The translations under genes were made by a program, and so were the position numbers. From positions 1 through 63,447 of the IMG/VR virus record IMGVR_UViG_3300048583_000179: a DNA stretch of 63,447 nucleotides; one strand, given 5' to 3'. Origin of the DNA: a virus. The notes beneath the pieces are model-generated. The model was given only the letters and a program-made list of their open reading frames with translations, made no database searches and was not told the DNA's origin. Positions within the stretch are counted from its first letter, which is position 1. Each line of letters begins with the position of its first letter. Of this stretch, positions 38,818-63,447 are shown piece after piece.

Positions 38818-40524
38818 ATGCACATACTACCAGAAGGCTCTAATCAGGCGCGTATAAAAACCTCCCTCGGGGGTGGTGTACTGGACACCCTACGTTCAGT
38901 ACCGGGGGGCGTTACGTGGGCTGATCGGGATGCCATTGTAGACCTCATCCCAGACAACGTTGAGTACCTGCAAACCAAGTTCCCTGATGCTGAATGGGAT
39001 CCAAGCTTTGCGGAGATCTTTGCTGTCTGGGCACGCGACGCTGAAGAGGCTAAGGACGCTGAAGCCAAGCGCGTCGCCGCACTAGACCTTGATGGGGATG
39101 ACTTTGAATACGGCACGGCACCGGACACCCATCAGCGTATTGGGTTTCTACTAGGTCGCGACCTGCCCGGCTTCATGTACTTCATGGAACCCGGCACGGG
39201 CAAGAGCAAGATCCTCGTAGACACTGCTGCCCATTTGTACAAGACGGGCAAGATCAAGGGCATACTCATTGCGGCTGAGAACGGCTTGCACCTTGAGTGG
39301 CCCGCCGAGTTCGCCAAGCATGCGCCGAAGTGGCTTCGCTACCGGGCGGAGATTTACCGGAGCGGCATGGGCAAGAAGCGCAAGGAGGCGATGGCCGACC
39401 TTGTAAAGACGGACTGCCTTCGCCTTGTAATGCTCAACCTTGAAGCACTCAGCCACAAGAGCGGCAGGGACTTTGCGGAGTGGTTCCTTAAGAGCCAACC
39501 CACCCTGTTCTGCGTTGACGAAAGCCAGCTTATCGGCGTGCCCAGTTCTACACGCACCCGTAATGCTGTGACGTTGGCAAAGCTCGCACCCTACCGCCGC
39601 ATCCTCAGCGGCACCCCCGTAGCCGAAGGCATTGAACGCTTGTATAGTCAGTGCCGCTTTACCGACGACAACATTCTACGCCTGACCCGTTACAGCACGT
39701 TCAAGCACTACTTCACCAAGCAGGTTGGGCGGTGGAATAAGATTGTTGGCTACAAGAACGTGGACGAGCTCATGCGTCGCATTGGCCCGTACAGCTACTT
39801 CAAGGAAAAGAAGGACTGTATGGATCTACCGGAACGGACCTTCGAGCGTCTGACGGTGGAAATGTCGGACGAGCAAGCCCGCATGTACGGGGAGCTCAAG
39901 TCCCAGTACACGGTAGAAGTTCTCGAGGGTAAATGGGTGGAAGCTGAGCTTGCAGTAGCTAGGCTCGTCAAGCTTCAGCAGATTGCCAGTGGGTTCGTGC
40001 GGGTTGAGGGCGAAAACGTTATCTTCAGCAACACCCCCCGGCTCAAAGTCATGGTCAGCATGGCCGAACAGGCCCGCCGGAAGATAGTCATCTGGTGTGC
40101 CTTCAAAGCCAACGTGGAAATGATCCATGAAGCCCTCGACGAAGGGGGTATTGGCTCAGCCCTGTATTACGGCGAACAAGACGCCATTGAAAATAGCGAA
40201 GCCCTACGCGAGTGGCGAAAGCCAACTGGCCCGAAGGCATTGGTGCTTACGCTGAAGAAGGGCATTCGCGGCCTTACTATGAACGAGGCCGATACCATGT
40301 TCTACTACAGCCACACATGGAGCAACGAAGCCCGCACCCAGTCGCTAGAGCGAAACTACAGGCGCGGGCAAGACTTGCCCACCACAGTCTTTGACTTCGT
40401 GGCACCCGGAACCGTAGATGTCAAAATTCTACGGGCGCTGGAAAAGAAGCAGTCAATCAAAGAGCTTCTAAAGTCACCCCAGACGGTGAAGGAATGGCTC
40501 GATATCCCTCTGGAAGTTCGCTAA
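38818..40524 (+). CDS. SNF2/DEAD-type helicase, 568 aa
   Basis: Walker A MEPGTGKSK near residue 123, motif II FCVDESQ, motif III ILSGTPV, and the C-terminal motifs VLTLKKGIRGLTMNEADT and QSLERNYRRGQ define an SF2 SNF2-like helicase. In phages such proteins often pair with a VRR-NUC nuclease and act in replication or repair. Here the two genes sit behind the two copies of the same control element. The ribosome site is weak. Confidence 0.88.
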   Translation: MHILPEGSNQARIKTSLGGGVLDTLRSVPGGVTWADRDAIVDLIPDNVEYLQTKFPDAEWDPSFAEIFAVWARDAEEAKDAEAKRVAALDLDGDDFEYGTAPDTHQRIGFLLGRDLPGFMYFMEPGTGKSKILVDTAAHLYKTGKIKGILIAAENGLHLEWPAEFAKHAPKWLRYRAEIYRSGMGKKRKEAMADLVKTDCLRLVMLNLEALSHKSGRDFAEWFLKSQPTLFCVDESQLIGVPSSTRTRNAVTLAKLAPYRRILSGTPVAEGIERLYSQCRFTDDNILRLTRYSTFKHYFTKQVGRWNKIVGYKNVDELMRRIGPYSYFKEKKDCMDLPERTFERLTVEMSDEQARMYGELKSQYTVEVLEGKWVEAELAVARLVKLQQIASGFVRVEGENVIFSNTPRLKVMVSMAEQARRKIVIWCAFKANVEMIHEALDEGGIGSALYYGEQDAIENSEALREWRKPTGPKALVLTLKKGIRGLTMNEADTMFYYSHTWSNEARTQSLERNYRRGQDLPTTVFDFVAPGTVDVKILRALEKKQSIKELLKSPQTVKEWLDIPLEVR

Positions 40525-40729
40525 GGTTGCAGATAAAGAAGTCATCCTTAGTGTACACCCCAAGCTTCTCAGCTTCTTGAAATTTCCAGCTCAGCGGGTT
40601 GTCGACTTTGACGGTGCCACCTACATGTTTCATTAGGCGACCGCTCGGGTCGTAGTACCGCTTGCCCTTCATACGAATAGTGCCGTCCGGCCACACCTGT
40701 CTCTTGCCCTGAAATCTAACGCTTCCCAT
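40457..40729 (-). CDS. Hypothetical protein, 90 aa
   Basis: Convergent with the helicase and overlapping its end by 68 bp. Starts MGSVRFQGKRQVWPDGTIRM, basic, with a WPDGTIRM-GKRYYDPSG pair of strands like a small beta repeat. Start shares a base with the preceding stop (TAATG). Confidence 0.6.
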   Translation of the reverse strand: MGSVRFQGKRQVWPDGTIRMKGKRYYDPSGRLMKHVGGTVKVDNPLSWKFQEAEKLGVYTKDDFFICNLSELPEGYRAIPSPSGVTLEAL

Positions 40730-41063: not shown

Positions 41064-42928
41064 ACGCACTCACCCCAACTGTTGCCGATGGCGAGGTCAA
41101 CCAGCATTGGAACACGAAGCTGTACCACGTCCCGCATGATTTGAACTGCTCGCTGGACACTACCGTCTTGCGGGTCGTTCAGGCCCAGTTCGTCGTGTAC
41201 AGGCACGAGCGGTGGCACCTTAAATTCTTTCCAGTACTCAATCATGGCGAGCTTGGTTTGGTCGGCGGCACTGCCTTGGATTAGGGCGTTGAGTGCCTTG
41301 TAGGTAAAGCCATACCCCTCAGTTTCGGGCACGCCTTCCTGGTAGAAGCGACACTTGCGCCCGCCCAGTGTGAGAATATAGCCACGCTTCTTTGCTCGCC
41401 GCTTGCACTCGTCTGACAAGTCCTTAACGAAGGCCATCTTGTCAAAGTACGTGTCAATCAACGCTTGGCCTTCCGGCCCGGCCACTTCAAGCGGCCGACC
41501 CCGAACAGTCTTCCACTCGGTGGGCAGCCCAAGCTGATGACAGGTACTCGCACCCCCGCGCCCGTACATCAGGGCAAGGTTCATAATCTTTGCGGGCTTG
41601 CGCCCGATGCCCATGATCTGTGCCGTCAGGGTGTGCATGTCCGTAGTTACATCTTCGTTGTATGCCTTGACAAAGGCTTCAACGCTACGGAACCCGGCGA
41701 CTGATGCGTAGTGAACAGCCAATCGCGGTTCCTGTTGGCTGTAGTCGCAGCTCGCCCACTTACAGCCCTCTTCCGGTAGAAATATTTCCCGGATTAGCTT
41801 GCCGCTGAACGGGTCTTTTTCTAGGTTGGGCGGGTTCATTACATTGGGGTTCCGGGCCGACATGCGCCCGCTGACGGCCCCACCGTCTTCGCCACGCGCC
41901 AATGGAATAATTTCTGGGTGGATACGCCCGCTGACTTGCTTCTGGATAAAGAAGCCTTCAACGAAAGTGCTCACCGTCTTCATCGGCTTGCGGGCAGCAA
42001 CGATCAGCTTGGCCACCGGATCTTCATGGGCTAAGAGCCAGTCCTGCGTAAAGCTAGGCTTCTTTGTCTTTGGTGTTAGCGGGTAGGTCACACCGTGCTT
42101 GTCAAACAGCTTGGCAATATCTTCGCCACTGTTGACGTTAACGTGGAACCCGGCAGCCCGGTTAATCTCAGTCTGGGCCTCTTCGGCCATGCGGTGCAGC
42201 GTCTTGCGAGCAGGTTCCAGCTTGTCGGCATCAATGCGTATGCCGCGACGGCGCATGTCCAGTAGCACGTCCTGAAGCTCAATCTCCATGTTGTACACGC
42301 GCCACAGATCTTCAGCCGTCAAGTGCTCTTCCAGCACAAGCCACAGCGCACGGGTACGGGCGGCATCGTCTTCACCGTACTCGCCCACCTGTTCGGGGCG
42401 CAGCCGCCAGATCAAGCCCTTGTCAGGCTTCTTGTCCTTGCGCCCAAGCTTTTGACTGAGCTCAAGCAGTGCCCGGTTCATACCCTCTTGTGACTTACCC
42501 TTGCCCGTATAGTGGATGGCGAGGTTGTCAAGGCTGTAGCTGTCCCGGTACTCGTTCAGCAGGGGGGCAGCCGTCTGGGTGTCATGAACACGATGGAAGT
42601 GGATGCCTTCGGTGCTAAACCATCCACGGTCGTACATTGCGTTGTGAAAGACCCACTGTACATCGTCACCATGGGCATAGTGCCGAATCCACCTGAAGAC
42701 AAGGTCGGGATCAAAGTTGCCGCCCGGTTCGTGGCGAACCGGCCAATAGCCCTTGCCGCCTTCCCATGCGACACCTACGCCCACGATGTACCCGCGCTCG
42801 TCCATGGGCAAGCTACTGAAGCACCATCCCGGCCCGCGACCCGGCTCAATGTGGGGGTCACGGGTTTCGGTGTCAATGGCTACGAGGCCACTAAGGCGCG
42901 GAAACTCTGCGGGGGGTGTCCAGCTCAT
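41060..42928 (-). CDS. DNA polymerase I (family A), 622 aa
   Basis: The 3'-5' exonuclease motifs are present: VAIDTET (Asp19/Glu21), FHNAMYD (about 94-100) and EYGEDDAAR. Polymerase motif A is CDYSQQEPR (Asp395), motif B RKPAKIMNLALMYG (Arg443, Lys447, Tyr455) and motif C PVHDELG. The residue matching E. coli Phe762 is Leu451. No 5'-3' nuclease domain. It is the replicative polymerase and must accept the modified triphosphate. Confidence 0.95.
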   Translation of the reverse strand: MSWTPPAEFPRLSGLVAIDTETRDPHIEPGRGPGWCFSSLPMDERGYIVGVGVAWEGGKGYWPVRHEPGGNFDPDLVFRWIRHYAHGDDVQWVFHNAMYDRGWFSTEGIHFHRVHDTQTAAPLLNEYRDSYSLDNLAIHYTGKGKSQEGMNRALLELSQKLGRKDKKPDKGLIWRLRPEQVGEYGEDDAARTRALWLVLEEHLTAEDLWRVYNMEIELQDVLLDMRRRGIRIDADKLEPARKTLHRMAEEAQTEINRAAGFHVNVNSGEDIAKLFDKHGVTYPLTPKTKKPSFTQDWLLAHEDPVAKLIVAARKPMKTVSTFVEGFFIQKQVSGRIHPEIIPLARGEDGGAVSGRMSARNPNVMNPPNLEKDPFSGKLIREIFLPEEGCKWASCDYSQQEPRLAVHYASVAGFRSVEAFVKAYNEDVTTDMHTLTAQIMGIGRKPAKIMNLALMYGRGGASTCHQLGLPTEWKTVRGRPLEVAGPEGQALIDTYFDKMAFVKDLSDECKRRAKKRGYILTLGGRKCRFYQEGVPETEGYGFTYKALNALIQGSAADQTKLAMIEYWKEFKVPPLVPVHDELGLNDPQDGSVQRAVQIMRDVVQLRVPMLVDLAIGNSWGECV

Positions 42929-43032
42929 GATAGCACAAGCAGCACGGCAAATGCGATGAGGCCAATGCCGATGGACAGCATCATAAGCCCGGTGACCGTG
43001 TAATACACGAAGCCAATGAGGCGGTAAATCAT
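42925..43032 (-). CDS. Membrane peptide, 35 aa
   Basis: MIYRLIGFVYYTVTGLMMLS then a hydrophobic run to the C-terminus; nearly all membrane segment. Start shares a base with the upstream stop and the stop overlaps the polymerase start. Confidence 0.5.
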   Translation of the reverse strand: MIYRLIGFVYYTVTGLMMLSIGIGLIAFAVLLVLS

Positions 43033-43341: not shown

Positions 43342-43537
43342 GTGTTAGGCGGTCGTAGAGGCTAGGGTAGCGATCTACGATTTCCATCAACCGTTGGTGC
43401 AAATTCCGGTTGATCCTACCTGTGATCTGCTGTCCACCCGGCGTGCTGCTCCACTCAAACAAGTCTTCTGCACTATGCGCGATGAGGCTACCGATTGCGA
43501 CGCTATTGGGTTTTATGAGCCCCAGTGGGGTCGTCAT
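43334..43537 (-). CDS. Hypothetical protein, 67 aa
   Basis: ATG 43537 with GGGAGATCC upstream, overlapping the previous gene by 35 bp. The -35 of the polymerase promoter lies in its last codons. Function unknown. Confidence 0.6.
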   Translation of the reverse strand: MTTPLGLIKPNSVAIGSLIAHSAEDLFEWSSTPGGQQITGRINRNLHQRLMEIVDRYPSLYDRLTLA

Positions 43538-43901
43538 GCGGATCTCCCTCGTAGAGTGGGCTGACTTCTTCAAGAGGGAACGGATCTTGGATCGCGAGGA
43601 TGCCTTGCGCATATGCTTCTGCCTCAATCAAGATAAGGTAGCGTCGCAGGTCGCGAATGCTTTCAATGGCTGACTCCCCACCTTCGTCAACCCGTGCAAT
43701 AGCCTTGAACACGTCGTACCCGCATGCCTTGGCCTGTTCCTCAAGCCTGTCGGCCTTACGAATACTGACCATGAAGGCACCCGGCCCACCCCGCTTTTTC
43801 CAACTTGCACCATAGGCGATATCTTTGGCAAGGACGGCTTCCGCATCAGCCTCTGCCACCATGCGGATGAAGTCGCGGTAGCTTGTGTCGTTGTTGTCCA
43901 C
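43503..43901 (-). CDS. Helical protein next to the dUMP hydroxymethylase, 132 aa
   Basis: LAKDIAYGASWKKRGGPGAF followed by a helix and SIRDLRRYLILIEAEAY resembles small all-helical phage proteins linked to nucleotide modification (MazG-like or Nmad1/DUF1599-like). Its start overlaps the stop of the thymidylate-synthase-fold gene, so the two are translated together. It might remove a competing nucleotide or bind modified bases. Family placement is tentative. Confidence 0.5.
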   Translation of the reverse strand: MDNNDTSYRDFIRMVAEADAEAVLAKDIAYGASWKKRGGPGAFMVSIRKADRLEEQAKACGYDVFKAIARVDEGGESAIESIRDLRRYLILIEAEAYAQGILAIQDPFPLEEVSPLYEGDPHDDPTGAHKTQ

Positions 43902-44905
43902 TAGACCTCCTTCCAGGTACGCCGCTCAAGCCATTCCACGCACGCCTTGCGCCAGTCCTCGGCGCGGCACTCCTCAGCGGCAATGATGGCAAGTCCCTTG
44001 TTGCCTTGCTTGTAGAACTCCCAACTGTCAAACAGCGGGGTCACCACATACTGAAAGTACGGGGTTTGATAGTCCTCAGTGGGGTTGATGCCCTGTGCCT
44101 CGTTGGTAAATTCGCGCAGGTCGCGATCCCACTGGGCCTGAGTAACGTCGCCTGTGAATAGGGGGTAGGGGCGCACCAAGCCATTCTCATACGGGTCAAC
44201 ACGGAAAGACCCATGCTGAACAACGTTGTCCAGCTCATGCTTTTCCCAGACGTCCGTGTAGGCGTGGAAGTTGCCGCTCACCTGCTCGTACCACCCCACC
44301 TCGGCCTGAACGCACCCCGCCACATACTCTTGGATAACGCTGAAGTGAACTGCATTGGCCCCGAACGTGCCCCAAATCATATCGTTGCTGCGGTTGAACA
44401 CCAACATGTTCAGGCGGTTGGCGGGGTCAACCTCTAGCTTGATGCCCACATTGCAGGGGATGTCATTGCTGTTGGCCCCTACATCCTTTGGAAAGTAGAT
44501 GGGCACGTACACCCGCCGACTGTACCTGTCCTTCTGTAGCATGGTGACGGCTTCAGCCAACATGTCGCCGCCAGTGTCACGACGCATGCGGAACCCGTAG
44601 GCACCGTAGAAGTACTCACCGTCGTCACTGTACTTGGCGATCTGGCTATTGAACTGGGCAAGCCAACGAACGTCCTTGCGCCCGGCCAAGATCCACAGGC
44701 TTTCAAACAGGTGGAAGTACGGGTTGGCATCACGGTCCTCACCGAACAGCACCCGCTCCATGGGCCGACGGTAGGTTGTCACCACGGGCTCGTTCGCCAC
44801 ATAGGCCGACCCGTTACGGGTCTTTTGAATGTAGCCGTAGTAGTGAAGCAACCGTGCTCCGAGCACGTATGCCTCGTTTACATTCCGTGCATTAATGGTG
44901 TGCAT
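43901..44905 (-). CDS. dUMP hydroxymethylase candidate (thymidylate synthase fold), 334 aa
   Basis: NPYFHLFESLWILAGRKDVR, IPCNVGIKLEV (Cys151 as nucleophile), NRSNDMIWGTFGANAVHFS (Arg172 and Asp175 for dUMP) are thymidylate synthase motifs. The FGANAVH variant differs from FNIA of classical ThyA and is common in phages with altered thymine. With the kinase and pyrophosphorylase nearby, conversion of dUMP to 5-hydroxymethyl-dUMP is more likely than dTMP synthesis, but both are possible. ATG 44905 after AAGGAGACTGA. Confidence 0.75.
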   Translation of the reverse strand: MHTINARNVNEAYVLGARLLHYYGYIQKTRNGSAYVANEPVVTTYRRPMERVLFGEDRDANPYFHLFESLWILAGRKDVRWLAQFNSQIAKYSDDGEYFYGAYGFRMRRDTGGDMLAEAVTMLQKDRYSRRVYVPIYFPKDVGANSNDIPCNVGIKLEVDPANRLNMLVFNRSNDMIWGTFGANAVHFSVIQEYVAGCVQAEVGWYEQVSGNFHAYTDVWEKHELDNVVQHGSFRVDPYENGLVRPYPLFTGDVTQAQWDRDLREFTNEAQGINPTEDYQTPYFQYVVTPLFDSWEFYKQGNKGLAIIAAEECRAEDWRKACVEWLERRTWKEV

Positions 44906-44931
44906 TCAGTCTCCTTAGGTAAAGAGGGCCA

Positions 44932-45000
44932 CTAGGTAACCGCCCCTAGTATAAGCAGTAGAACACCCCAAAGACAAGCCCCAAGAAATGCCCAAAGCAT
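44932..45000 (-). CDS. Possible membrane peptide, 22 aa
   Basis: MLWAFLGACLWGVLLLILGA and two more residues: almost entirely one transmembrane helix. CGAGGTGCGCA precedes ATG 45000. Between the pyrophosphorylase and hydroxymethylase genes. Too short to be sure. Confidence 0.3.
   Translation of the reverse strand: MLWAFLGACLWGVLLLILGAVT
44948..44977 (-). promoter_or_regulatory. Possible promoter TTGTCT-18-TATACT
   Basis: -35 at 44972-44977, -10 at 44948-44953 (minus strand). It would give extra transcription of the hydroxymethylase gene. Confidence 0.45.
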
Positions 45001-45025
45001 TGCGCACCTCGGGGTTACGTTGCAA

Positions 45026-45970
45026 CTAGGACGCGGCTTTCCGCCAGTCATACGTCACCTTGGGTCGCCCCTCGCCGGTTTTGGCTCGCAGGTACTTGTC
45101 AGTTTCGCACAAGCTGTGTTCAATGTCCCGCATTTCTAGAGAACCCGGAATGTGATTACCCAACGGGCTACCGACATCATTGGCCACGGCAAGCAGCCCC
45201 CGCATAAGGGCTAGGGCCGTTTGCTGTCGCAGAGGGGCATCAGCGATGCGCCCTGCCAGTCTATTTAGCCCCCGCAGTGCCCCCGGCCCGGCATTAGCCC
45301 ATGTCATGATGTCTGGAGCATTGCGAAGGTACCGTGTCCACCGAAGGTCGGTGACCACTTCGTAGGCAATGAACGGCCCGAAGCCATTGTAGTTGCGAAA
45401 CCACTTCCAGACCTGCTCCAATGAATATTGGGTGCCGCCATTCACAGCAGGGTCAAACAGTTCATCAAAGTCACGGCTTTCGCCCGCACGAGTGGCGTCC
45501 CAGATTGGCTTCAGCACATGGGTAAAGACGAAGTCTTCCTTTGGCATGCTCTTACCCCCGTTCGTAATGAGGTAGGCATTACCAAAGGTCTTCAGCCCGT
45601 TGGCCTGACGGCCCGTATAGATTGACTTCCATTGGTCGTAGTCAAACTCATCTGGCAGGGCGGTTTCGCGTAGTAGCTGACGCAGCGTACCGGGCCAATT
45701 CGTATTCCGCGCCATGGCGAGTAGAAACCACAGGTTGTGGTGCTTCGCGTAGGGCTTACGAATATTTTCTTCAATCCAGATGGTGACGGTGTCCAGCTCG
45801 CGAAACACGTTGCAGAATCTATAATCGCGGAGAATAGGGTCATCCGTCCACGGACCCGAATTCCCACTCTTCCTCCGTAGGTAGATCTTGTGCCGCTCGT
45901 TGATCCAGTAGAAGAAGGGCTCGGCGTCCAGCTCCCATTCTTCATCGTCTACTGGGATGGTTACTTTCAT
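45026..45970 (-). CDS. Alpha-glutamyl/putrescinyl-thymine pyrophosphorylase, 314 aa
   Basis: AEPFFYWINERHKIYLRRKS, PWTDDPILRDYRFCNVFREL and DTVTIWIEENI match the aGPT-Pplase family by recollection; members replace the pyrophosphate of 5-pyrophosphoryloxymethyl-uracil in DNA with an amino acid or polyamine. Residues 19-67 carry the signature; the rest is helical, ending EGRPKVTYDWRKAAS. The substrate (glycine, glutamate, ornithine or other) cannot be read from the sequence. Start overlaps the previous stop (ATGA). Confidence 0.85.
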   Translation of the reverse strand: MKVTIPVDDEEWELDAEPFFYWINERHKIYLRRKSGNSGPWTDDPILRDYRFCNVFRELDTVTIWIEENIRKPYAKHHNLWFLLAMARNTNWPGTLRQLLRETALPDEFDYDQWKSIYTGRQANGLKTFGNAYLITNGGKSMPKEDFVFTHVLKPIWDATRAGESRDFDELFDPAVNGGTQYSLEQVWKWFRNYNGFGPFIAYEVVTDLRWTRYLRNAPDIMTWANAGPGALRGLNRLAGRIADAPLRQQTALALMRGLLAVANDVGSPLGNHIPGSLEMRDIEHSLCETDKYLRAKTGEGRPKVTYDWRKAAS

Positions 45971-46242
45971 ATACGAGGCTTTCTTTTAGGGGGCGTTCCA
46001 AGCTGTGTCAGCACTTCGGTCAGTACGGTCAACGCGTCTTTGTGCCGTACTCCATCAGCTACGAGGGCTTCAGTTTCCAGCCACTTTTGTTGAAACATGG
46101 CTGTCGGTATCTTAAAGAGTAGAGGCCGTACCGCATCCAAGCGAGCTTGATTGCACCGTAGACAGTTGTCCACGAGGCAATAGTCATCGCACAAGGCGTT
46201 ACGAAACGCCTCAAGGATTTGGGCCTCCAGGTCCTCTTTCAC
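45967..46242 (-). CDS. Hypothetical protein between kinase and pyrophosphorylase, 91 aa
   Basis: Helical with a Cys group (CDDYCLVDNCLRCNQ) that could bind a metal. GTG start coupled to the kinase stop (GTGA) and stop coupled to the pyrophosphorylase start, so it is made with the modification enzymes. No family recognised; a partner or donor-loading role is possible. Confidence 0.6.
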   Translation of the reverse strand: MKEDLEAQILEAFRNALCDDYCLVDNCLRCNQARLDAVRPLLFKIPTAMFQQKWLETEALVADGVRHKDALTVLTEVLTQLGTPPKRKPRI

Positions 46243-46829
46243 AAACCGAGAAGCTCAATGGTGTGTTCCACTGCCATCTCGTGATTGATCCACACCCACG
46301 GCACCCCGTCGGCCTTGGCTTTCTGTTCGCACCGCAGGACGTCATTGTACATCTTTTCCGTGTTGTGCGTGTTGAACTGGCGGGACTTGCCCTTGTTCTC
46401 ACGGCGGTCGCCTACCCGCTGAATAGCCTTGTCAAGCGGCGTGTCCAGTGCCGCGAGTACCATGCGGCCCGGATACTCGTTCAGGGCCATATCAGCGTAC
46501 CGCTGATAAATGTGGCTAATGAGCAAGCCTTCGAACAGTACCTTGTGCCCCATGGCCCGCAGAGTGCGAACCCTGTCCTGAATGATGTCTTGTGCCCGGC
46601 CCTTCTCAGTAATGCCGTCACAGCCCCCGCAGTCGTTTTGGTAGTCGCCGACGATGGCGAGCTTGGGGGTGGCGGTCATGTACCAGTCGTACTTGATCTT
46701 CTTTTTACCTGCGCTGTTGCCGATGGCCGGAAACTCGGGCTTCATGTCAAACGCTTTGATAAGCTCCGTCATCAGCGTTGACTTGCCGCTGCCACTTGTA
46801 CCACGGATGTTGATGATGTCGTACGGCAC
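46239..46829 (-). CDS. 5-hydroxymethyluracil DNA kinase, 196 aa
   Basis: Walker A IRGTSGSGKST (Gly10-Thr18) in a P-loop kinase of the size of 5-hmU DNA kinases; GDYQNDCGGCDGI and LFEGLLISHIYQRYADMAL follow. The family phosphorylates 5-hydroxymethyl-uracil already in DNA to give a pyrophosphate ester. GTG start after GAGGAGGGGGTC. First gene of the modification unit. Confidence 0.8.
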   Translation of the reverse strand: MPYDIINIRGTSGSGKSTLMTELIKAFDMKPEFPAIGNSAGKKKIKYDWYMTATPKLAIVGDYQNDCGGCDGITEKGRAQDIIQDRVRTLRAMGHKVLFEGLLISHIYQRYADMALNEYPGRMVLAALDTPLDKAIQRVGDRRENKGKSRQFNTHNTEKMYNDVLRCEQKAKADGVPWVWINHEMAVEHTIELLGL

Positions 46830-46915: not shown

Positions 46916-47704
46916 TTACTCGGCCGTGGCTTCGCCGGAGTCATCAGCACCGACAGCCGCCTTGGCCTTCTTAGCCTTCTTTGGCTTGGCAGCCTTCGGT
47001 TCCGCGCCCTCCTCGGCCTCAGCAGCCTTCGCCTTCGGCGGCTTCGGCGGCTCGGGGATCACGTGCTCCAGCGGGGCACGGAGGCCCGTGGGCAGCACGA
47101 GCTGATAGTACACCCGGCCATCCACGATGCTGGACTTGATGCCGTAGCCGTGCACCTTGTAGACGCGGCCCGACAGAGCGCGGCCCTTGCGCTCCAGCGC
47201 CGACTTCAGGTCATCCGCGAAGACACCCGCGTACAGCAGGTCGATCATGTGAGCGATCTTGCTGCCCTGCCGCGCCGCCTTGATCTGGTCCAGCGCCTTC
47301 GGCTCGATCTGCGTCAGGTGCGGGCCACGGGGCGTCGCCTCCGCGCCCTCCGCCTTCGGCTTACGGTTGCGCTTCTTCTTGCCGCCCTCTTCCACGGCCT
47401 CGGTCGCCTCGTTGCTCTCGCTTGCACTCATGTTGTACACCGCTCCGTATCCCGCCATAATGGCGTTTTCGTGTGAAGTGAACCGCTTGATCTTGATCGT
47501 GTGCGTGTGGTTGAACGCACCCAGCAGAATTGACATGGGCACTTCTTCCAAGTGCTCACGGTTACGCTGCCAGAGAATCCACCGACCCTCCTTGGGATTA
47601 TGGGTTGTGACGCGAGCGTCTGGCGGCACTCGCGTCACCCGGAACTTGCCTTCCGGGATGCGCTCAATGAGCAATGACGTGTGAGTTGCTGGATACTGAA
47701 CCAT
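46916..47704 (-). CDS. Hypothetical protein with Lys/Ala/Pro-rich linkers, 262 aa
   Basis: An N-terminal beta domain (GKFRVTRVPPDARVTTHNPK, then WILWQRNREHLEEV), a disordered basic linker (KKKRNRKPKAEG), a helical domain and a Lys/Ala-rich tail. Probably binds nucleic acid or oligomerises. First gene of the modification unit; unknown function. Confidence 0.65.
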   Translation of the reverse strand: MVQYPATHTSLLIERIPEGKFRVTRVPPDARVTTHNPKEGRWILWQRNREHLEEVPMSILLGAFNHTHTIKIKRFTSHENAIMAGYGAVYNMSASESNEATEAVEEGGKKKRNRKPKAEGAEATPRGPHLTQIEPKALDQIKAARQGSKIAHMIDLLYAGVFADDLKSALERKGRALSGRVYKVHGYGIKSSIVDGRVYYQLVLPTGLRAPLEHVIPEPPKPPKAKAAEAEEGAEPKAAKPKKAKKAKAAVGADDSGEATAE

Positions 47705-50729: not shown

Positions 50730-52286
50730 CTAGAACTCCTCGGTTGGCTTGGCTGCCGCCACCTTGGGCTTAGACTCAAGCACTACTGGGTCTTCTACTT
50801 TAACCCCCCAGACGTTGACACCCTTGCCCGCCACATTCCAAAACTTCTTTTCCGAGCCGCGCTGATGCAGCAACAGCGACACGGCTTGTTGATTCTTATA
50901 GCTGATGCGGTGGTTGTCAAGGAAGGTGTACAAGTCAGTGATACGAAACCAGACAACATTGCCGTCACGGTACGGCTTGCCGCCAACGAAAATCTCTTCA
51001 CGGCTTGCGGCGTACACCTTCTGTGTACAGAACTTAATGATCCATTCCCAAAGCTGCCCGGTGGGACTAGCCTCTTCCGGCATCTGCACGATGTCGGCGG
51101 TTGGCACGATACGGTTCAAGTACGACAACCACTTCTTGGGCGTCATAGCTGGAAACGGCACGATGCCAATCTGTGACATGCATTGCTTGTTGAACTCGTC
51201 CTTGCCGTAAAACTGCGCCGTGTTCATCTGCACCCGCTTGCCGTCAATTTCCATGGTCCAGATTGGCTCTTCACCGGGGCCATGGTCGTAGCGGGTCAAC
51301 GCCTGTATCTCGTACTCGCGATAGGCGTCCTCGTCGTTGCCAATGTCACCGATCCCAAACTGGCGAGCGAGACATGCGCTTCTTTGGCAGTACGAATTGA
51401 TGGGGGGCAGCTTGCAGCGATAGGTGTAACTCTTACGGCTGACCGACTTCTTCAAGTGCTCAATTTCTTCTGAGCCCAGCTTGGCCATCGCCGTATTGTA
51501 CTGATCGACTTGGTCTTTCCAGCTGTCCGGGTACCGCTTCTTCAGGTACACTACAACGTTGAACATGCCGTCATTGCGCGTGCCTTCAACGAAACCGCCT
51601 TGTGCTTCAAGCTGCTGAAGGCAGGGTGGCCCTTCGTAGAACAGGTCACTTGTCTGCACAATCCACGACTTCATTAGCTTGGCGGGCGGCACCCGTGCCG
51701 CTTGGGCGGCAGTAAGGAACTGCGCCAGCGACGCCGGGCGACCGTCTATTACGGCATAGCGCTCCGTAGCATACGCCTTATGGTACGGCAGGTTGATATA
51801 GTTTCCAATGTCGTCTTCGTTGAAGCGACTGGTCTGCTTTGGAAACTTTTCCGTCTTGCTGGACATGCCCAACATGGCCGACCACTCAGTCAGCCTGTCC
51901 TGCATTACACGGGCGGGAACAGGGTCGGTGCAAAAGCAGTAGAAGTGACCGCCGCCGCTCTTACTGCGACACAGCACAAGCGGCAGACCCTTTTCTTTAA
52001 TGGTCTGTTCTGCCTTCACGTGATCCATGCGTGGGTTATCGTAGTCAATTGCGCCGAACATGACCGTGTCATCTTCGCGCAACATGATAATCCCAATGGT
52101 CGGACCCGTGCCGTCAAGATGTGCTACAAAGTGATCGTGTTGTACTTGACCACGAACGACACGGTTTTTGGTTTCTACTTTCCCGGCTTTGGTGAGCTGC
52201 CCGGTCAGCTTTGTTTCGCCGTATGCCTTAGTGTATCCGTCGAACAGGGCCGCGAAGCGGCGAACATCCAGTTCGTCCAATTGCAT
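50730..52286 (-). CDS. AEP-type primase, 518 aa
   Basis: VMFGAIDYDNPR gives the DxD pair and VLCRSKSGGGHFYCF the sxH motif of archaeo-eukaryotic primases, near residues 75-115. A cysteine segment (YRCKLPPINSYCQRSACLA) follows. It would make primers for the family-A polymerase. No DnaG- or DnaB-type protein is found elsewhere. Confidence 0.8.
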   Translation of the reverse strand: MQLDELDVRRFAALFDGYTKAYGETKLTGQLTKAGKVETKNRVVRGQVQHDHFVAHLDGTGPTIGIIMLREDDTVMFGAIDYDNPRMDHVKAEQTIKEKGLPLVLCRSKSGGGHFYCFCTDPVPARVMQDRLTEWSAMLGMSSKTEKFPKQTSRFNEDDIGNYINLPYHKAYATERYAVIDGRPASLAQFLTAAQAARVPPAKLMKSWIVQTSDLFYEGPPCLQQLEAQGGFVEGTRNDGMFNVVVYLKKRYPDSWKDQVDQYNTAMAKLGSEEIEHLKKSVSRKSYTYRCKLPPINSYCQRSACLARQFGIGDIGNDEDAYREYEIQALTRYDHGPGEEPIWTMEIDGKRVQMNTAQFYGKDEFNKQCMSQIGIVPFPAMTPKKWLSYLNRIVPTADIVQMPEEASPTGQLWEWIIKFCTQKVYAASREEIFVGGKPYRDGNVVWFRITDLYTFLDNHRISYKNQQAVSLLLHQRGSEKKFWNVAGKGVNVWGVKVEDPVVLESKPKVAAAKPTEEF

Positions 52287-56294: not shown

Positions 56295-56320
56295 GGTGGG
56301 CGTTAGTTCACCCACCTTGC
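56291..56320 (-). terminator. Terminator of the fibre gene
   Basis: GCAAGGTGGG pairs with CCCACCTTGC over a 10-nt loop that contains the stop codon (56303-56305). Confidence 0.65.
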
Positions 56321-59300
56321 CTTGACCCGACGCTTGCCAAGCAGGGGATCCGGCCCCGTGCTTGTGATACCCGCTGCGAAGGCATTGGCGTTTGTCACCG
56401 CGAGCAGGATGGTACGAATGCTAACCCCGGCAATACGAGTGACGGGAAGAGCTTCGGCGGTCGCAGTCGCAATACCTAGACTTCTCGCCGTGCCGCCCGG
56501 CGTGGACGTGACAGTGAACGCAACGACGTTGACCTGAGCAAGCCCAATCGGTCGCGACGTTGTGCCGAGAGTGCGAGTAACTGGGAACGCCTGTGCCGAA
56601 CCGACTGCAAGCGCGAGGCTGCGATTAACTGCGCCCGCCGTGCGCGTCACAGGCTGGGCTACCGCAGAAGTAGAGGCAAGGCCAAGCGTCTTTGTCACAG
56701 CACCCACCGTGCGCGTTACCGCTTGAGCGACAGCCGTTGCCACGGCAAGCGCGATCGTACGCGATTGACCGCCAAGCGTCACTCCAGTAGCAAACGCACT
56801 CGCCGTTGCGACGGCGAGGCTGATGCTGCGCGACACCGCACCAGAGGTACGGGTTACTGCGAATGGAACCGCACTGACAACCGCGAGACCAATCGTCTTT
56901 GCCGCTTCCCCAACGGTGCGCGTCACAGCGAACGCAGTGGCGGTTGCCGTTGCGATAGAAATAGAGCGGCTGATGCCGGTGGTCAGTGTCGCAGCGAACC
57001 CGGTCGCCGTTGCTTCGGCGAGGCCAACCGTGCGACTGACAACCGCAGTTACCGAGACGGCGAACCCTGTCGCCGTTGCTTCAGCAAGTCCAAGGGTGCG
57101 CGTCGTAGCTCCCACCGTGCGCGTCACAGCGAATGCGACAGCATTGGCAGCAGCGAGGCTGACTGCACGAGACGTGGCCCCCACGGTGCGAGTCACAGCA
57201 AACGCGCTCGCGGTAGCCGTCGCCAGCGACGTAGCCCGTGAAACGACCGCTGTACGAGCCACAGCCTGTGCGACGGCTGTGGCTGACGCCAATCCGATAG
57301 CCCGCTGCGTGGCACTCAGGCTGCGTGCCACCGCAAAAGCCGATGCCGTAGCCGACCCCAAACCGATAGCGCGGCTAGAGGTGCCGGGCGTTAGCGAGAG
57401 GGGCAACCCTTGGGCAGTAGCCGACGCCAACCCTAGCGCCCGGCTAACCGCCCCCACCGTGCGCGTCACAGCGAGCGCCTGTGCCGTCGCTGACGCCATC
57501 GAAGCTGCTACCGTTACTGTAGCGGTGCGGGCAACCGCTTGAGCAACTGCCGTGGCGACGGCGAGACCTGTTGCGAGGTTTGTCCCTCCAGCGGGTGCCG
57601 TAATTCCGGCAGCGAAGCCGACTGCCTGTGGCGTGCTGTCAACCACCACGTTGTCAACGTAAGCGTCGCCAACAGAAGTCGTATGGTAGACGCCGAACCC
57701 GGCGTATCCACTAGTCAACCTAGAAGCGTCCGTGTCGCTGAACGTTCCCCACGCCCCGCCATCAATACGATAGCGTAGAATAACTGAGGTTGGGGTATTC
57801 AGGGCCATGAACTCTACGTCTGAGTCAGCACCAGATGTGTAGCTGAGGACGTTGCTGTTCAGTACCGTAAACGACCCGGCGACGTTGCGAGCAAGTGCGA
57901 CCGCACTTCCAGTACCGTCTGAGTAGAGGTAGTAGGCAGTGTTCGTTCCGGGTGCGGCTCCAGCCCTGAGCGCCAGTGCCCAGTATTGACCAGTAGCCCC
58001 GCTGCGAACTCTTGCGCGAACCGCCTGTGGTCCAGTCGGTGCCCCCGGCCCTTCCCACCTGTAGTAGATATCCTGATTGGCGGTATCACCACGAACGCGA
58101 TTGTTCTCAATTACGAGGTTGCCACTTCCAACGAACCGAACCCAGTCAGCGTCGTACGCTTGCAGGTTTTGGTTAGAGGCTGAGAAGGTATCAACACCCG
58201 CAGCGACACTGACAACCGCCGTGCGGGTGACAGCTTGAGCGGCTGCCGTCGCCACAGCGAGGCCCGCAGTCCGGCTGACAACTGCCGTGCGAGTTGTCTT
58301 GAACGCTTGGGCAACGACGGCGTTCTCTGGAAACAATTCAAACTCATCAATCCAAACAGCGGTGCTCCCGGTGTCTTGGAACATGTGGAATGGAAATGCA
58401 AACCCGTCCGTAGGATCAAGGGGCGAGCCGCCCCACCCCGACACGTCCTGCGACCAGACAAGTGCGCCGTTGATCCAAAATCGTACGAGCAGGTCTTGGT
58501 ACGCAACTTCGACCGTGATCTCCTCACCCTCGGTGTAGGCATACGCGGTCGTATTTCCGTTTGAATCAAAGTACGTGCTGAACAGCGCCGAGCCAACCCT
58601 CAGGTAGCCCGTGTTCAGTGCGGTAACGCTGAAATCGAAGTAGTCGCCGTTCGTGTATTCAACTCGAAAGTAAGTGTCTGCAGATTCTCTACAGCTCATT
58701 TTCCAACGAGCGCGGAACTTCTTGCCACCCGTCAAGCTGTTCATCCGAGCACCGAAGTACGAGCCGCCGATGCTTCCAATCTCAAGCCGGTTGTTACGAA
58801 TGACCGCTGTTTGGTAGCCGTTCTGGTGCGCGACCCACGTTCCACCGATGTCCGCCGCCGTGCCGACCAAGTTCGTGCCGGTCGTGTCGGTGAACATGTC
58901 ACGAATGGCCGGACCACCGCCAGCGAGTCCAACAGTACGGCTGATCTCCGCCGTGCGGTTCACTGGAATAGCCACGGCACCGGACAGCTCGTTCGGGCCG
59001 TCAACGGGAGTCAGGCTACCCGTCAACGTTAGATTGGCTGTACCGCTTCTATCCAGTGTGTCGTTGTCACCGTGCCAGTTGAGGATCAGGTTGGTAGCGC
59101 TGATCGGGTCGCGCGACCACATTTGGCGCGTGGCCTCTTCCTCAGTAAGTAGGCGATCCCAGTAGTACACAGCGGCAATCGGCTCAACCCAGTTGGTTCC
59201 ACCGACCCGAAGTTCAGTTGGAGTCCAGCCGGTATCACCGCCGAAGCCACCCGTTGCCTTTTCAATTGCCGCAGCGTCAAGCTTTCTAATCCAAAGCTTG

Positions 59301-60622
59301 CACTCGGACGCAACCGTTGAGTAGAAAGCTAGAACGGCGTACCAGCCCTCAGAGTGGGCGATTTGGCACACGCTACCCCACGGGCTCAAGTTCAAGCGAA
59401 CATTGCCAAACGGGTCAATGCTCCACTCCCTGAAGTGGCCGCTTCCTCCATCATTCAAGCTTACGCCGACATCGTAGCCCGTAGCTGGAGGCGGCAGGTA
59501 CGCGATCGTAAAGCAGGTATGCCCGTTGATAGCGGGATAGTTAGTGCTGCGACTGAGGTAGTTGCCAGCACTCCATCCATCGCGGGCCATGAGATCTTGG
59601 CCCACAACCGATAGCCCCACCGCACGGCTGACAGCCCCCGACGTACGAGTGACAGGCTGAGCAACCGCCGTCGCACTGGCAAGGACAAGCGGGCGGTTCG
59701 AGGTTCCGGGAGTGATGCCCGCAGCCTGAGCAACCGCTGTCGCTGTGGCGAGTCCAATACCGGCATTCTGTGCCGCGCCCCCAACGGTGACGCCAAGGGC
59801 GAACGCTTCGACAAACGGGCGATCTACCTCTTCAAGACCGACTTCAGTATCGGTACCGACCGGGGTGTAGAGAACCGAAGCCCGCAGCGCAGTGACGCGA
59901 ACGTCATTGGCATAGGCCGGAGTTGACGTTGCCCACTTGTCCTTGATGAGGTACTTTAGCATCTGATGCTGTTCAACGTCAGACAGGATGCGGTCAAACG
60001 CTATGATTTCTGCGATCCAGCCGTCGAAGAATGCCGTACCACCGTAGCTTCGGCCGAGGTCAAAGTTCGTGGCCCACACCGGAACTTCTGTCGCGCCAAA
60101 GTAGCCGTAACTCTGGTAGATGCGCTGATGGTTGACGCCCGCCATGTGGTAGTCACGGGCACGGGCTTGCCAGTGAACATGCCATTGACTGAACGTGCTT
60201 CCACTATACCCGATGTTGTCCATGGCCGGGCGGTCGCTACGACCAAACGAATCGTAGATTGTACCGTCAGTCCATGGATAGTGCGAAACACTCGTGCTCG
60301 TGCCGACCGTCCATATACCGCTGTCCGACAGTCCGGCCGGAGTATTGTTGCGCTTCTTACAGAGCATCAGCAGCGTAACCGCCTTCAGGGCGCTGAAGGG
60401 GTTGGCGCAGCTCAGGTATTCGGAACTGGATGCGGTGAATTCTACGGTAGCGAGGCCGTTCTGTGTCGCACCGACTGACGGCTTACCGGATCCGGCTTGA
60501 ACGAAGTCGTTACCGTTACCGCTCTGGTCTGCCCATTCAGAGATGTCACCACCAGATTCAGTGATGCCAGCATCGCCCTTGAGCCAGAGTGTTAGGCCAT
60601 CAAGATCGGTAGGGACAGTCAT
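56303..60622 (-). CDS. Giant fibre/receptor-binding protein with LamG-like domains, 1439 aa
   Basis: At least four beta-sandwich (LamG-like) parts: residues 1-230 (LTLWLKGDAGITESGGDISE), about 350-540, about 590-790 and about 830-1000. They are separated by, and end in, roughly 20 degenerate repeats of about 20 residues of the form RTVGAVSRALGLASATA. The last third is nothing but repeats. A tail or head fibre that binds host surface sugars is likely. Confidence 0.8.
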   Translation of the reverse strand: MTVPTDLDGLTLWLKGDAGITESGGDISEWADQSGNGNDFVQAGSGKPSVGATQNGLATVEFTASSSEYLSCANPFSALKAVTLLMLCKKRNNTPAGLSDSGIWTVGTSTSVSHYPWTDGTIYDSFGRSDRPAMDNIGYSGSTFSQWHVHWQARARDYHMAGVNHQRIYQSYGYFGATEVPVWATNFDLGRSYGGTAFFDGWIAEIIAFDRILSDVEQHQMLKYLIKDKWATSTPAYANDVRVTALRASVLYTPVGTDTEVGLEEVDRPFVEAFALGVTVGGAAQNAGIGLATATAVAQAAGITPGTSNRPLVLASATAVAQPVTRTSGAVSRAVGLSVVGQDLMARDGWSAGNYLSRSTNYPAINGHTCFTIAYLPPPATGYDVGVSLNDGGSGHFREWSIDPFGNVRLNLSPWGSVCQIAHSEGWYAVLAFYSTVASECKLWIRKLDAAAIEKATGGFGGDTGWTPTELRVGGTNWVEPIAAVYYWDRLLTEEEATRQMWSRDPISATNLILNWHGDNDTLDRSGTANLTLTGSLTPVDGPNELSGAVAIPVNRTAEISRTVGLAGGGPAIRDMFTDTTGTNLVGTAADIGGTWVAHQNGYQTAVIRNNRLEIGSIGGSYFGARMNSLTGGKKFRARWKMSCRESADTYFRVEYTNGDYFDFSVTALNTGYLRVGSALFSTYFDSNGNTTAYAYTEGEEITVEVAYQDLLVRFWINGALVWSQDVSGWGGSPLDPTDGFAFPFHMFQDTGSTAVWIDEFELFPENAVVAQAFKTTRTAVVSRTAGLAVATAAAQAVTRTAVVSVAAGVDTFSASNQNLQAYDADWVRFVGSGNLVIENNRVRGDTANQDIYYRWEGPGAPTGPQAVRARVRSGATGQYWALALRAGAAPGTNTAYYLYSDGTGSAVALARNVAGSFTVLNSNVLSYTSGADSDVEFMALNTPTSVILRYRIDGGAWGTFSDTDASRLTSGYAGFGVYHTTSVGDAYVDNVVVDSTPQAVGFAAGITAPAGGTNLATGLAVATAVAQAVARTATVTVAASMASATAQALAVTRTVGAVSRALGLASATAQGLPLSLTPGTSSRAIGLGSATASAFAVARSLSATQRAIGLASATAVAQAVARTAVVSRATSLATATASAFAVTRTVGATSRAVSLAAANAVAFAVTRTVGATTRTLGLAEATATGFAVSVTAVVSRTVGLAEATATGFAATLTTGISRSISIATATATAFAVTRTVGEAAKTIGLAVVSAVPFAVTRTSGAVSRSISLAVATASAFATGVTLGGQSRTIALAVATAVAQAVTRTVGAVTKTLGLASTSAVAQPVTRTAGAVNRSLALAVGSAQAFPVTRTLGTTSRPIGLAQVNVVAFTVTSTPGGTARSLGIATATAEALPVTRIAGVSIRTILLAVTNANAFAAGITSTGPDPLLGKRRVKARWVN
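56345..57640 (-). repeat. Degenerate 20-residue repeat array
   Basis: The C-terminal part of the 1439-aa protein repeats the pattern (V/T)TRT-(V)GA(V/T)(S/T)R-(x)-(I/L)GLA-x-A(T/S)A-x-A. Single units also appear in the linkers between beta-sandwich domains and in the 429-aa neighbour. Confidence 0.85.
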
Positions 60623-63150: not shown

Positions 63151-63447
63151 TTAGCAGTTCACGGCGTAGAGGCCGTTGGCATCGACGTTGATTGTGACGT
63201 TACCACCGTTGGTCGGCGTAGAGGTGACGTCGAACTGCGCGATCAGCGGGGAGGTAGTAGTGACTGTGGTGTCGCGCCAGACCACCGCCTGAGTGATCGT
63301 AGCACCAGACGCCAGCGAGCTGAAGGTGGGATCAGCGGCGTCAACGAGCATGCGGTCGTTGGCATCGTCCACGGCCACCGTCTTGGAACCGAGCGTCTGG
63401 GCCGAGTAGCCACCGACAGCGAGCTCATTGGTAAGCTCGCTGTAGAA
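63151..63447 (-). CDS. Small virion-type protein, C-terminal part (gene spans the join)
   Basis: The same gene as at 1-247, continuing from base 128 to 63447 on the circle and ending at TAA 63151. The full product is 138 aa. The C-terminal part (AVVWRDTTVTTTSPLIAQFD, VTINVDANGLYAVNC) fits the widespread phage family. Confidence 0.8.
   Translation of the reverse strand, partial: FYSELTNELAVGGYSAQTLGSKTVAVDDANDRMLVDAADPTFSSLASGATITQAVVWRDTTVTTTSPLIAQFDVTSTPTNGGNVTINVDANGLYAVNC
63321..63447. repeat. Direct terminal repeat, right copy
   Basis: Exact copy of bases 1-127. Joining base 63447 to base 128 gives a 63,320-bp circle and restores one intact 138-aa reading frame across the junction. Confidence 0.97.

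Follow-up and report, generated by a model that had tools for sequence, protein, structure and literature searches.

Modified thymine has been reported for phages M6 and PaMx11 (PMC6449724, PMC9476957), and in pelagiphages a thymidylate synthase (TS), aGPT-Pplase1 and a glucosyltransferase co-occur (PMC9599517). In M6, FP1, PaMx11 and Pam3 the transferase and tailoring genes sit between a boundary gene (M6 gp049, an FP1 hypothetical gene, PaMx11 gp45, Pam3_38) and a 5-hydroxymethyl-deoxyuridine (5-hmdU) DNA kinase. The thymine modification of M6 is 5-NedU. Here we analyze a related minus-strand cassette in IMG/VR virus record IMGVR_UViG_3300048583_000179, the whole of which, 63,447 nucleotides, is called the window below. 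An earlier note, made from the letters of this DNA, had described the cassette as a thymine hypermodification gene set, and the family assignments of its three enzymes bear this out.

We propose that the window, a complete phage genome, carries a thymidine-hypermodification cassette in reduced form, with a pathway that would stop at 5-phosphomethyl-deoxyuridine (5-phosphomethyl-dU) plus residual 5-hmdU. We put the chance that this is right at about even. The stop is proposed because the genome lacks the amino acid:DNA transferase as well as every known tailoring enzyme. Comparison of the two ends of the window revealed an exact direct terminal repeat of 127 bp (1-127 = 63321-63447). The shared repeat marks the window as the complete circular genome of a phage, though the record is listed without end repeats, and genes not found in it can be taken as truly absent.

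A kinase without the known transferase

PF18724, the Pfam family named 'Amino acid:DNA transferase', has 0 matches in the complete window, where the best profile window reaches only E 4.8. Relatives were gathered by three independent queries: TS (80 IMG/VR loci), the kinase (80 loci) and the 132-aa protein of the cassette, run on bacterial and archaeal genome contigs (14 loci). PF18724 matches 27 of 38 records, namely M6, FP1, PaMx11, Pam3 and 23 others. It is present in 20 of the 24 other non-isolate kinase-bearing records of at least 40 kb; the four records that do not have it show no terminal repeats and may be fragments. A completeness check of other kinase-bearing records without PF18724 found terminal repeats in 0 of 5. 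The window is thus a kinase without the known transferase in a complete genome.

The tailoring enzymes are absent as well. Searches of the window found no radical SAM protein and no PALP-type pyridoxal phosphate (PLP) enzyme, and comparison with M6 and PaMx11 proteins found no M6-type PLP enzyme, radical SAM protein, Nmad5 or HD nucleotidase. The FAD and acetyltransferase tailoring enzymes of the M6/PaMx11-type system were likewise not found in the window. Relative to M6, ribonucleotide reductase (RNR) and dCMP deaminase are also lacking. Gene order agrees with these searches. The boundary gene of the window adjoins the kinase directly, with no transferase or tailoring genes between. Its homology to M6 gp049 (E 1e-6), the FP1 hypothetical gene (5e-4) and Pam3_38 (3e-8) is direct, while PaMx11 gp45 is linked to the boundary family through M6 and FP1. 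The features of the window that bear on the cassette are as follows.

43503-43901, minus strand: N132 protein, 132 aa; start overlaps the TS stop; homologs in Pam3, IMG/VR loci and genome contigs
43901-44905, minus strand: TS-fold dUMP hydroxymethylase-type enzyme (predicted), 334 aa; PF00303, phrog_5131
44932-45000, minus strand: possible 22-aa hydrophobic peptide MLWAFLGACLWGVLLLILGAVT, upstream of TS, from reading the sequence
45026-45970, minus strand: PF18723 'HMUDK_hel' / aGPT-Pplase clade 1 protein, 314 aa
45967-46242, minus strand: 91-aa Cys-rich ORFan, probably coding; overlaps both neighbours
46239-46829, minus strand: putative 5-hmdU DNA kinase, 196 aa, P-loop; PF13238, match to PaMx11 gp49
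46916-47704, minus strand: cassette boundary gene, 262 aa
41060-42928, minus strand: family A DNA polymerase (PolA), conserved cassette neighbour; PF00476 E 9e-50, 37% to M6 gp062
1-127, no strand: terminal direct repeat, copy 1
63321-63447, no strand: terminal direct repeat, copy 2

All five open reading frames (ORFs) described earlier for the cassette are present on the minus strand at the positions first given, and the proposed start/stop overlaps, GTGA between the kinase and 91-aa genes and ATGA between the 91-aa and 314-aa genes, were verified. Profile searches placed the TS-fold, kinase and aGPT-type enzymes in the families to which the earlier note had assigned them. Tiny hydrophobic ORFs lie directly before TS (44932-45000) and before PolA (about 42925-43032). 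M6, too, has a tiny hydrophobic ORF in front of its TS, gp057.

The 334-aa protein matches PF00303 (E 4e-17) and phrog_5131 (E 7e-96) and is 40-43% identical to its counterparts in M6, Pam3 and FP1 (40.5% to M6 gp058). We classify it, by family placement, as a dUMP-hydroxymethylase-type thymidylate synthase. The Pfam name of PF00303, Thymidylat_synt, would suit an ordinary thymidylate synthase whose neighbours serve DNA repair. We consider that very improbable: the enzyme clusters with the TS of M6 and PaMx11, both reported to have modified thymine (PMC6449724, PMC9476957), and its nearest solved structure is CMP hydroxymethylase (5jnh/5b6d, E 5e-15), far ahead of true TS at only 3e-5. Its active-site segment FGANAVH had been called unusual, which it is not: 83 of 157 relatives have GANAVH, and in M6, Pam3, FP1 and SN1 it does not vary. 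The 196-aa protein is the predicted 5-hmdU DNA kinase. It carries the P-loop GTSGSGKS, intact in 26 of 26 kinase sequences examined, and matches PF13238 (E 3e-7) and PaMx11 gp49 (phmmer E 1.3e-24).

In the proposed pathway the TS-fold enzyme would, from its family, make 5-hydroxymethyl-dUMP, which the phage polymerase would incorporate into DNA. The kinase, again from its family, would phosphorylate part of the 5-hmdU in DNA. The PF18723 protein may assist the kinase as a 5-hmdU-DNA recognition or base-flipping partner, a role suggested by its sharing between kinases and glycosyltransferases. No transferase or tailoring enzyme follows, and the pathway would end at 5-phosphomethyl-dU and 5-hmdU unless an unrecognised enzyme acts. 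Virion DNA is predicted to contain T, 5-hmdU and 5-phosphomethyl-dU rather than M6-like amines. The losses relative to M6 (transferase, HD nucleotidase, RNR, dCMP deaminase) could also mean that the pathway is decaying and that the DNA holds 5-hmdU alone or plain thymine. This seems to us quite improbable, as the three enzymes are intact: every family-invariant column of the TS, kinase and PF18723 alignments is kept in the window proteins, and their genes have good codon scores. With a kinase but no transferase, the window uncouples steps that occur together in characterised phages of this type, and this phage could reveal whether modification can end at phosphorylated thymine.

PF18723 and its decorating enzymes

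The 314-aa protein matches PF18723 (E 2e-48) and is 46% identical to M6 gp055. The name aGPT-Pplase covers two families. In the annotation of phage SN1 the homolog of M6 gp055 is clade 1 and the homolog of M6 gp051 is clade 2. PaMx11 gp46, whose structures 8z2m and 8z2n bear the entry name 'Glycinyltransferase', belongs to clade 2 (E 2e-93 to M6 gp051), that is, PF18724; a relative, 25qc, is named amino acid:DNA transferase. As the names of the PDB entries and of the Pfam family indicate, gp46 attaches an amino acid. In PaMx11 and M6 it is the clade 2 family that performs this attachment. An initial assignment of the 314-aa protein as an amino acid transferase was dropped when PaMx11 gp46 proved to be clade 2. 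The earlier note had likened the trio of enzymes to the sets that make amino-acid- or polyamine-modified thymine; this part found no support, the attaching family being clade 2, which is absent here.

Among 155 loci with TS and PF18723, 91 carry the kinase and 48 a glycosyltransferase of the TAGT (PF20691) or GT-B group 1 (PF00534) kind; no locus has both, and 16 have neither. In the TS-selected set alone (73 loci) the corresponding counts are 21, 42, 0 and 10 (Fisher 4e-11). In 48 kinase-less loci a glycosyltransferase takes the place of the kinase beside TS and PF18723 (L006:1216-1986, L050:8685-10001 and 46 others). PF18724 was confined to loci that have the kinase and was absent wherever a glycosyltransferase occurred. 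On the TS tree, at least nine changes of kinase/glycosyltransferase state can be counted. Because PF18723 occurs with a kinase or a glycosyltransferase and never with both, it is more likely a shared 5-hmdU-DNA-handling partner of whichever decorating enzyme is present than a pyrophosphorylase. If PF18723 acted on what the kinase produces, its presence next to glycosyltransferases in phages that lack a kinase would be surprising, which makes a shared partner the simplest interpretation. Given this exclusivity, the widely used label 'aGPT pyrophosphorylase clade 1' seems to mislead as to PF18723, for which a shared partner role is an alternative that can be tested. Neither the exclusivity around PF18723 nor its consequence was found in the literature searched. 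At one locus (L080:7865-9987) an unassigned 374-aa gene and a radical SAM/SPASM protein lie between PF18723 and TS, possibly a further decorating route.

No established activity was found for clade 1, and neither sequence nor profile searches returned a solved homolog of PF18723. The AlphaFold2 (AF2) model of the 314-aa protein (pLDDT 85.8) gives its best fold matches to AlkA/OGG1-type DNA glycosylases, at non-significant values of E 0.1 and worse. Glycosylases of this type flip bases.

Several considerations weigh against the proposal of a pathway that stops at 5-phosphomethyl-dU with PF18723 as a shared partner. The kinase of the window scores 24 bits to PF18748 (HMUDK), just below the cut-off of 27. 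The exclusivity is partly clade-structured, leaving 3-4 well-supported independent contrasts, too few for significance. The chemistry of this phage's DNA is predicted from its genes, and we know of no precedent for phosphomethyl-dU as an end product. Lastly, PF18723 is distantly similar to PF18724 and could itself be a transferase. In phages without PF18724, clade 1 would then attach an amino acid or polyamine and the thymine would be amino-acid-modified, close to what was first proposed for this locus. The two clades are co-linear, with GFGPF/GFGPW and LCE/LCK motifs that align (hhalign E 7e-4), and in M6 and PaMx11 clade 1 is invariably found with the kinase. We nevertheless regard a clade 1 transferase as unlikely, if worth keeping in mind. 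The hhalign probability is only 27%, and where clade 2 has an invariant Lys following the Cys (K248), clade 1 has an invariant Glu (E289). M6, FP1, PaMx11 and Pam3 have both clades, so that clade 1 is not redundant with clade 2. Clade 1 is also present where the kinase is missing, in the 48 glycosyltransferase loci, and in Hyphomicrobiaceae chromosomes that lack both enzymes.

Small genes of the cassette

The 132-aa gene next to TS had been listed as a small gene of unknown role. It is no orphan, as many homologs occur in the same cassette: in Pam3, in 35 of 81 TS-selected IMG/VR loci and in 14 genome contigs. The 14 genome loci came from a search with N132 only, and since 13 of them carry TS and PF18723, the remaining one being a contig end, N132 is a dedicated cassette family. 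The family is strongly conserved, and its motif reads YGDSW-x-RGG-x-GAFM-x-LARK-x-DR-x-E ... DLRRYL-x-L-x-E. No Pfam model matches the family, and no member matches an Nmad1 Pfam model. The AF2 model is all-alpha (pLDDT 81.6). Against BFVD it finds several Nmad1-named models with probability 0.87-0.99 but E 0.09-0.7 and a TM score of about 0.45-0.5. By its modelled fold N132 may resemble the all-alpha Nmad1 proteins, while a sequence-level match to an Nmad1 Pfam model is lacking. Among solved structures there was no convincing match by sequence or fold.

N132 and DUF3310 (PF11753; M6 gp061) exclude each other. No locus holds the two together, whether among the 81 TS-selected, the 78 kinase-selected or the 14 genome loci, and one or the other is present in 80 of the 81 TS-selected loci. 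Whole-record searches found PF11753 in 0 of 36 N132 records versus 35 of 41 DUF3310 records, the positive control, and N132 in 0 of 41 DUF3310 records. At least 12 switches between the two map onto the TS tree, 5 of them forced by well-supported branches. That N132 might be a divergent DUF3310 was rejected (hhalign probability 1.4%). A single slot seems to be occupied by either of two unrelated small proteins. DUF3310 has matches in parts of phage nucleotide-kinase families, and the function of N132 and DUF3310 is probably a TS-linked one in the nucleotide pool. In the window N132 would be the helper beside TS, probably acting on the nucleotide pool, a position that DUF3310 takes in most relatives. 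The exchange points to a small helper function on which almost all cassettes of this kind seem to depend; no assignment of it was found in the literature.

Hyphomicrobiaceae and other alphaproteobacterial contigs (L170, L171, L173, L176) carry the bare unit of PF18723, TS and N132, with no kinase or glycosyltransferase. That these contigs hold just those three suggests that PF18723, TS and N132 form the core. A broader model, which we hold only tentatively, would have the DNA end at 5-phosphomethyl-dU, PF18723 act as a general 5-hmdU-DNA adaptor for kinases and glycosyltransferases interchangeably, and the core consist of TS, PF18723 and N132 or DUF3310.

The 91-aa protein had been put forward as a possible new partner of the kinase and the pyrophosphorylase, but nothing beyond its position speaks for this. 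No homolog was found in Pfam, PHROGs, phages (tblastn), an IMG/VR pattern scan or 178 loci (phmmer --max, best E 0.8). The ORF is probably coding because it overlaps the genes on both sides and its codon score, -0.03, is above those of the other five frames (-0.24 to -0.83), though it is the lowest of the genes scored. The kinase-PF18723 junction elsewhere holds GNAT genes in L013 (929-1426) and L035 (8669-9139), a MazG-like gene in L072 and an HNH gene in L082. It looks like an insertion-prone slot, and position alone is therefore weak evidence for a partner role. N132 is the better candidate for a new partner. The modification might instead be finished by some non-homologous enzyme encoded at another place in the genome, perhaps the 91-aa ORFan, or by one of the host, which we judge improbable. 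The 91-aa gene does lie exactly between the kinase and PF18723, overlapping both, in a slot that holds GNAT acetyltransferases and a MazG-like gene in relatives. On the other hand, its product is a small Cys-rich protein that has no homologs, the codon signal of the gene is weak, and the use of the same slot by HNH genes suggests that it may be a mere insertion site.

Comparison with described systems

The phage is a distant relative of the Mesyanzhinovviridae (phages M6, PaMx11, Pam3). Its helicase, DNA polymerase, TS, kinase and PF18723 protein, along with several genes of the replication region, have matches among the proteins of M6, FP1 and Pam3, with identities of 27-46%. Outside the cassette, a pyrimidine dimer DNA glycosylase is encoded at 689-1138 (PF03013, E 5e-24), in a phage with predicted modified thymines. 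An archaeo-eukaryotic primase of AEP-TOTE type lies at 50730-52286 (PF22548, E 4e-14). The 1439-aa protein at 56303-60622 had no match in Pfam and PHROG searches, and a stand-alone 90-aa protein at 40457-40729 resembles the Mu transposase C-terminal domain (PF09299 E 0.003; phrog_310 E 6e-4).

Like the M6/PaMx11 cassette of the Mesyanzhinovviridae, the window has the TS-type hydroxymethylase, kinase, PF18723 protein and PolA in the same order, with the boundary gene upstream. It differs in having no PF18724, PLP enzyme, radical SAM protein, Nmad5 or HD nucleotidase, in the replacement of DUF3310 by N132 and in the extra 91-aa ORF. Pseudanabaena phage Pam3 shares with the window the kinase, PF18723, TS and an N132 homolog (Pam3_54) beside PolA, but it has the PF18724, PLP, radical SAM, Nmad5 and HD genes. 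Pelagiphage-type clusters (PMC9599517) contain the same TS and PF18723 families, many of these loci with N132; unlike the window, they have a TAGT or GT-B glycosyltransferase and no kinase. The main points of interest are the missing transferase and the two exclusion patterns, more than the trio itself, which is well known from M6-type phages.

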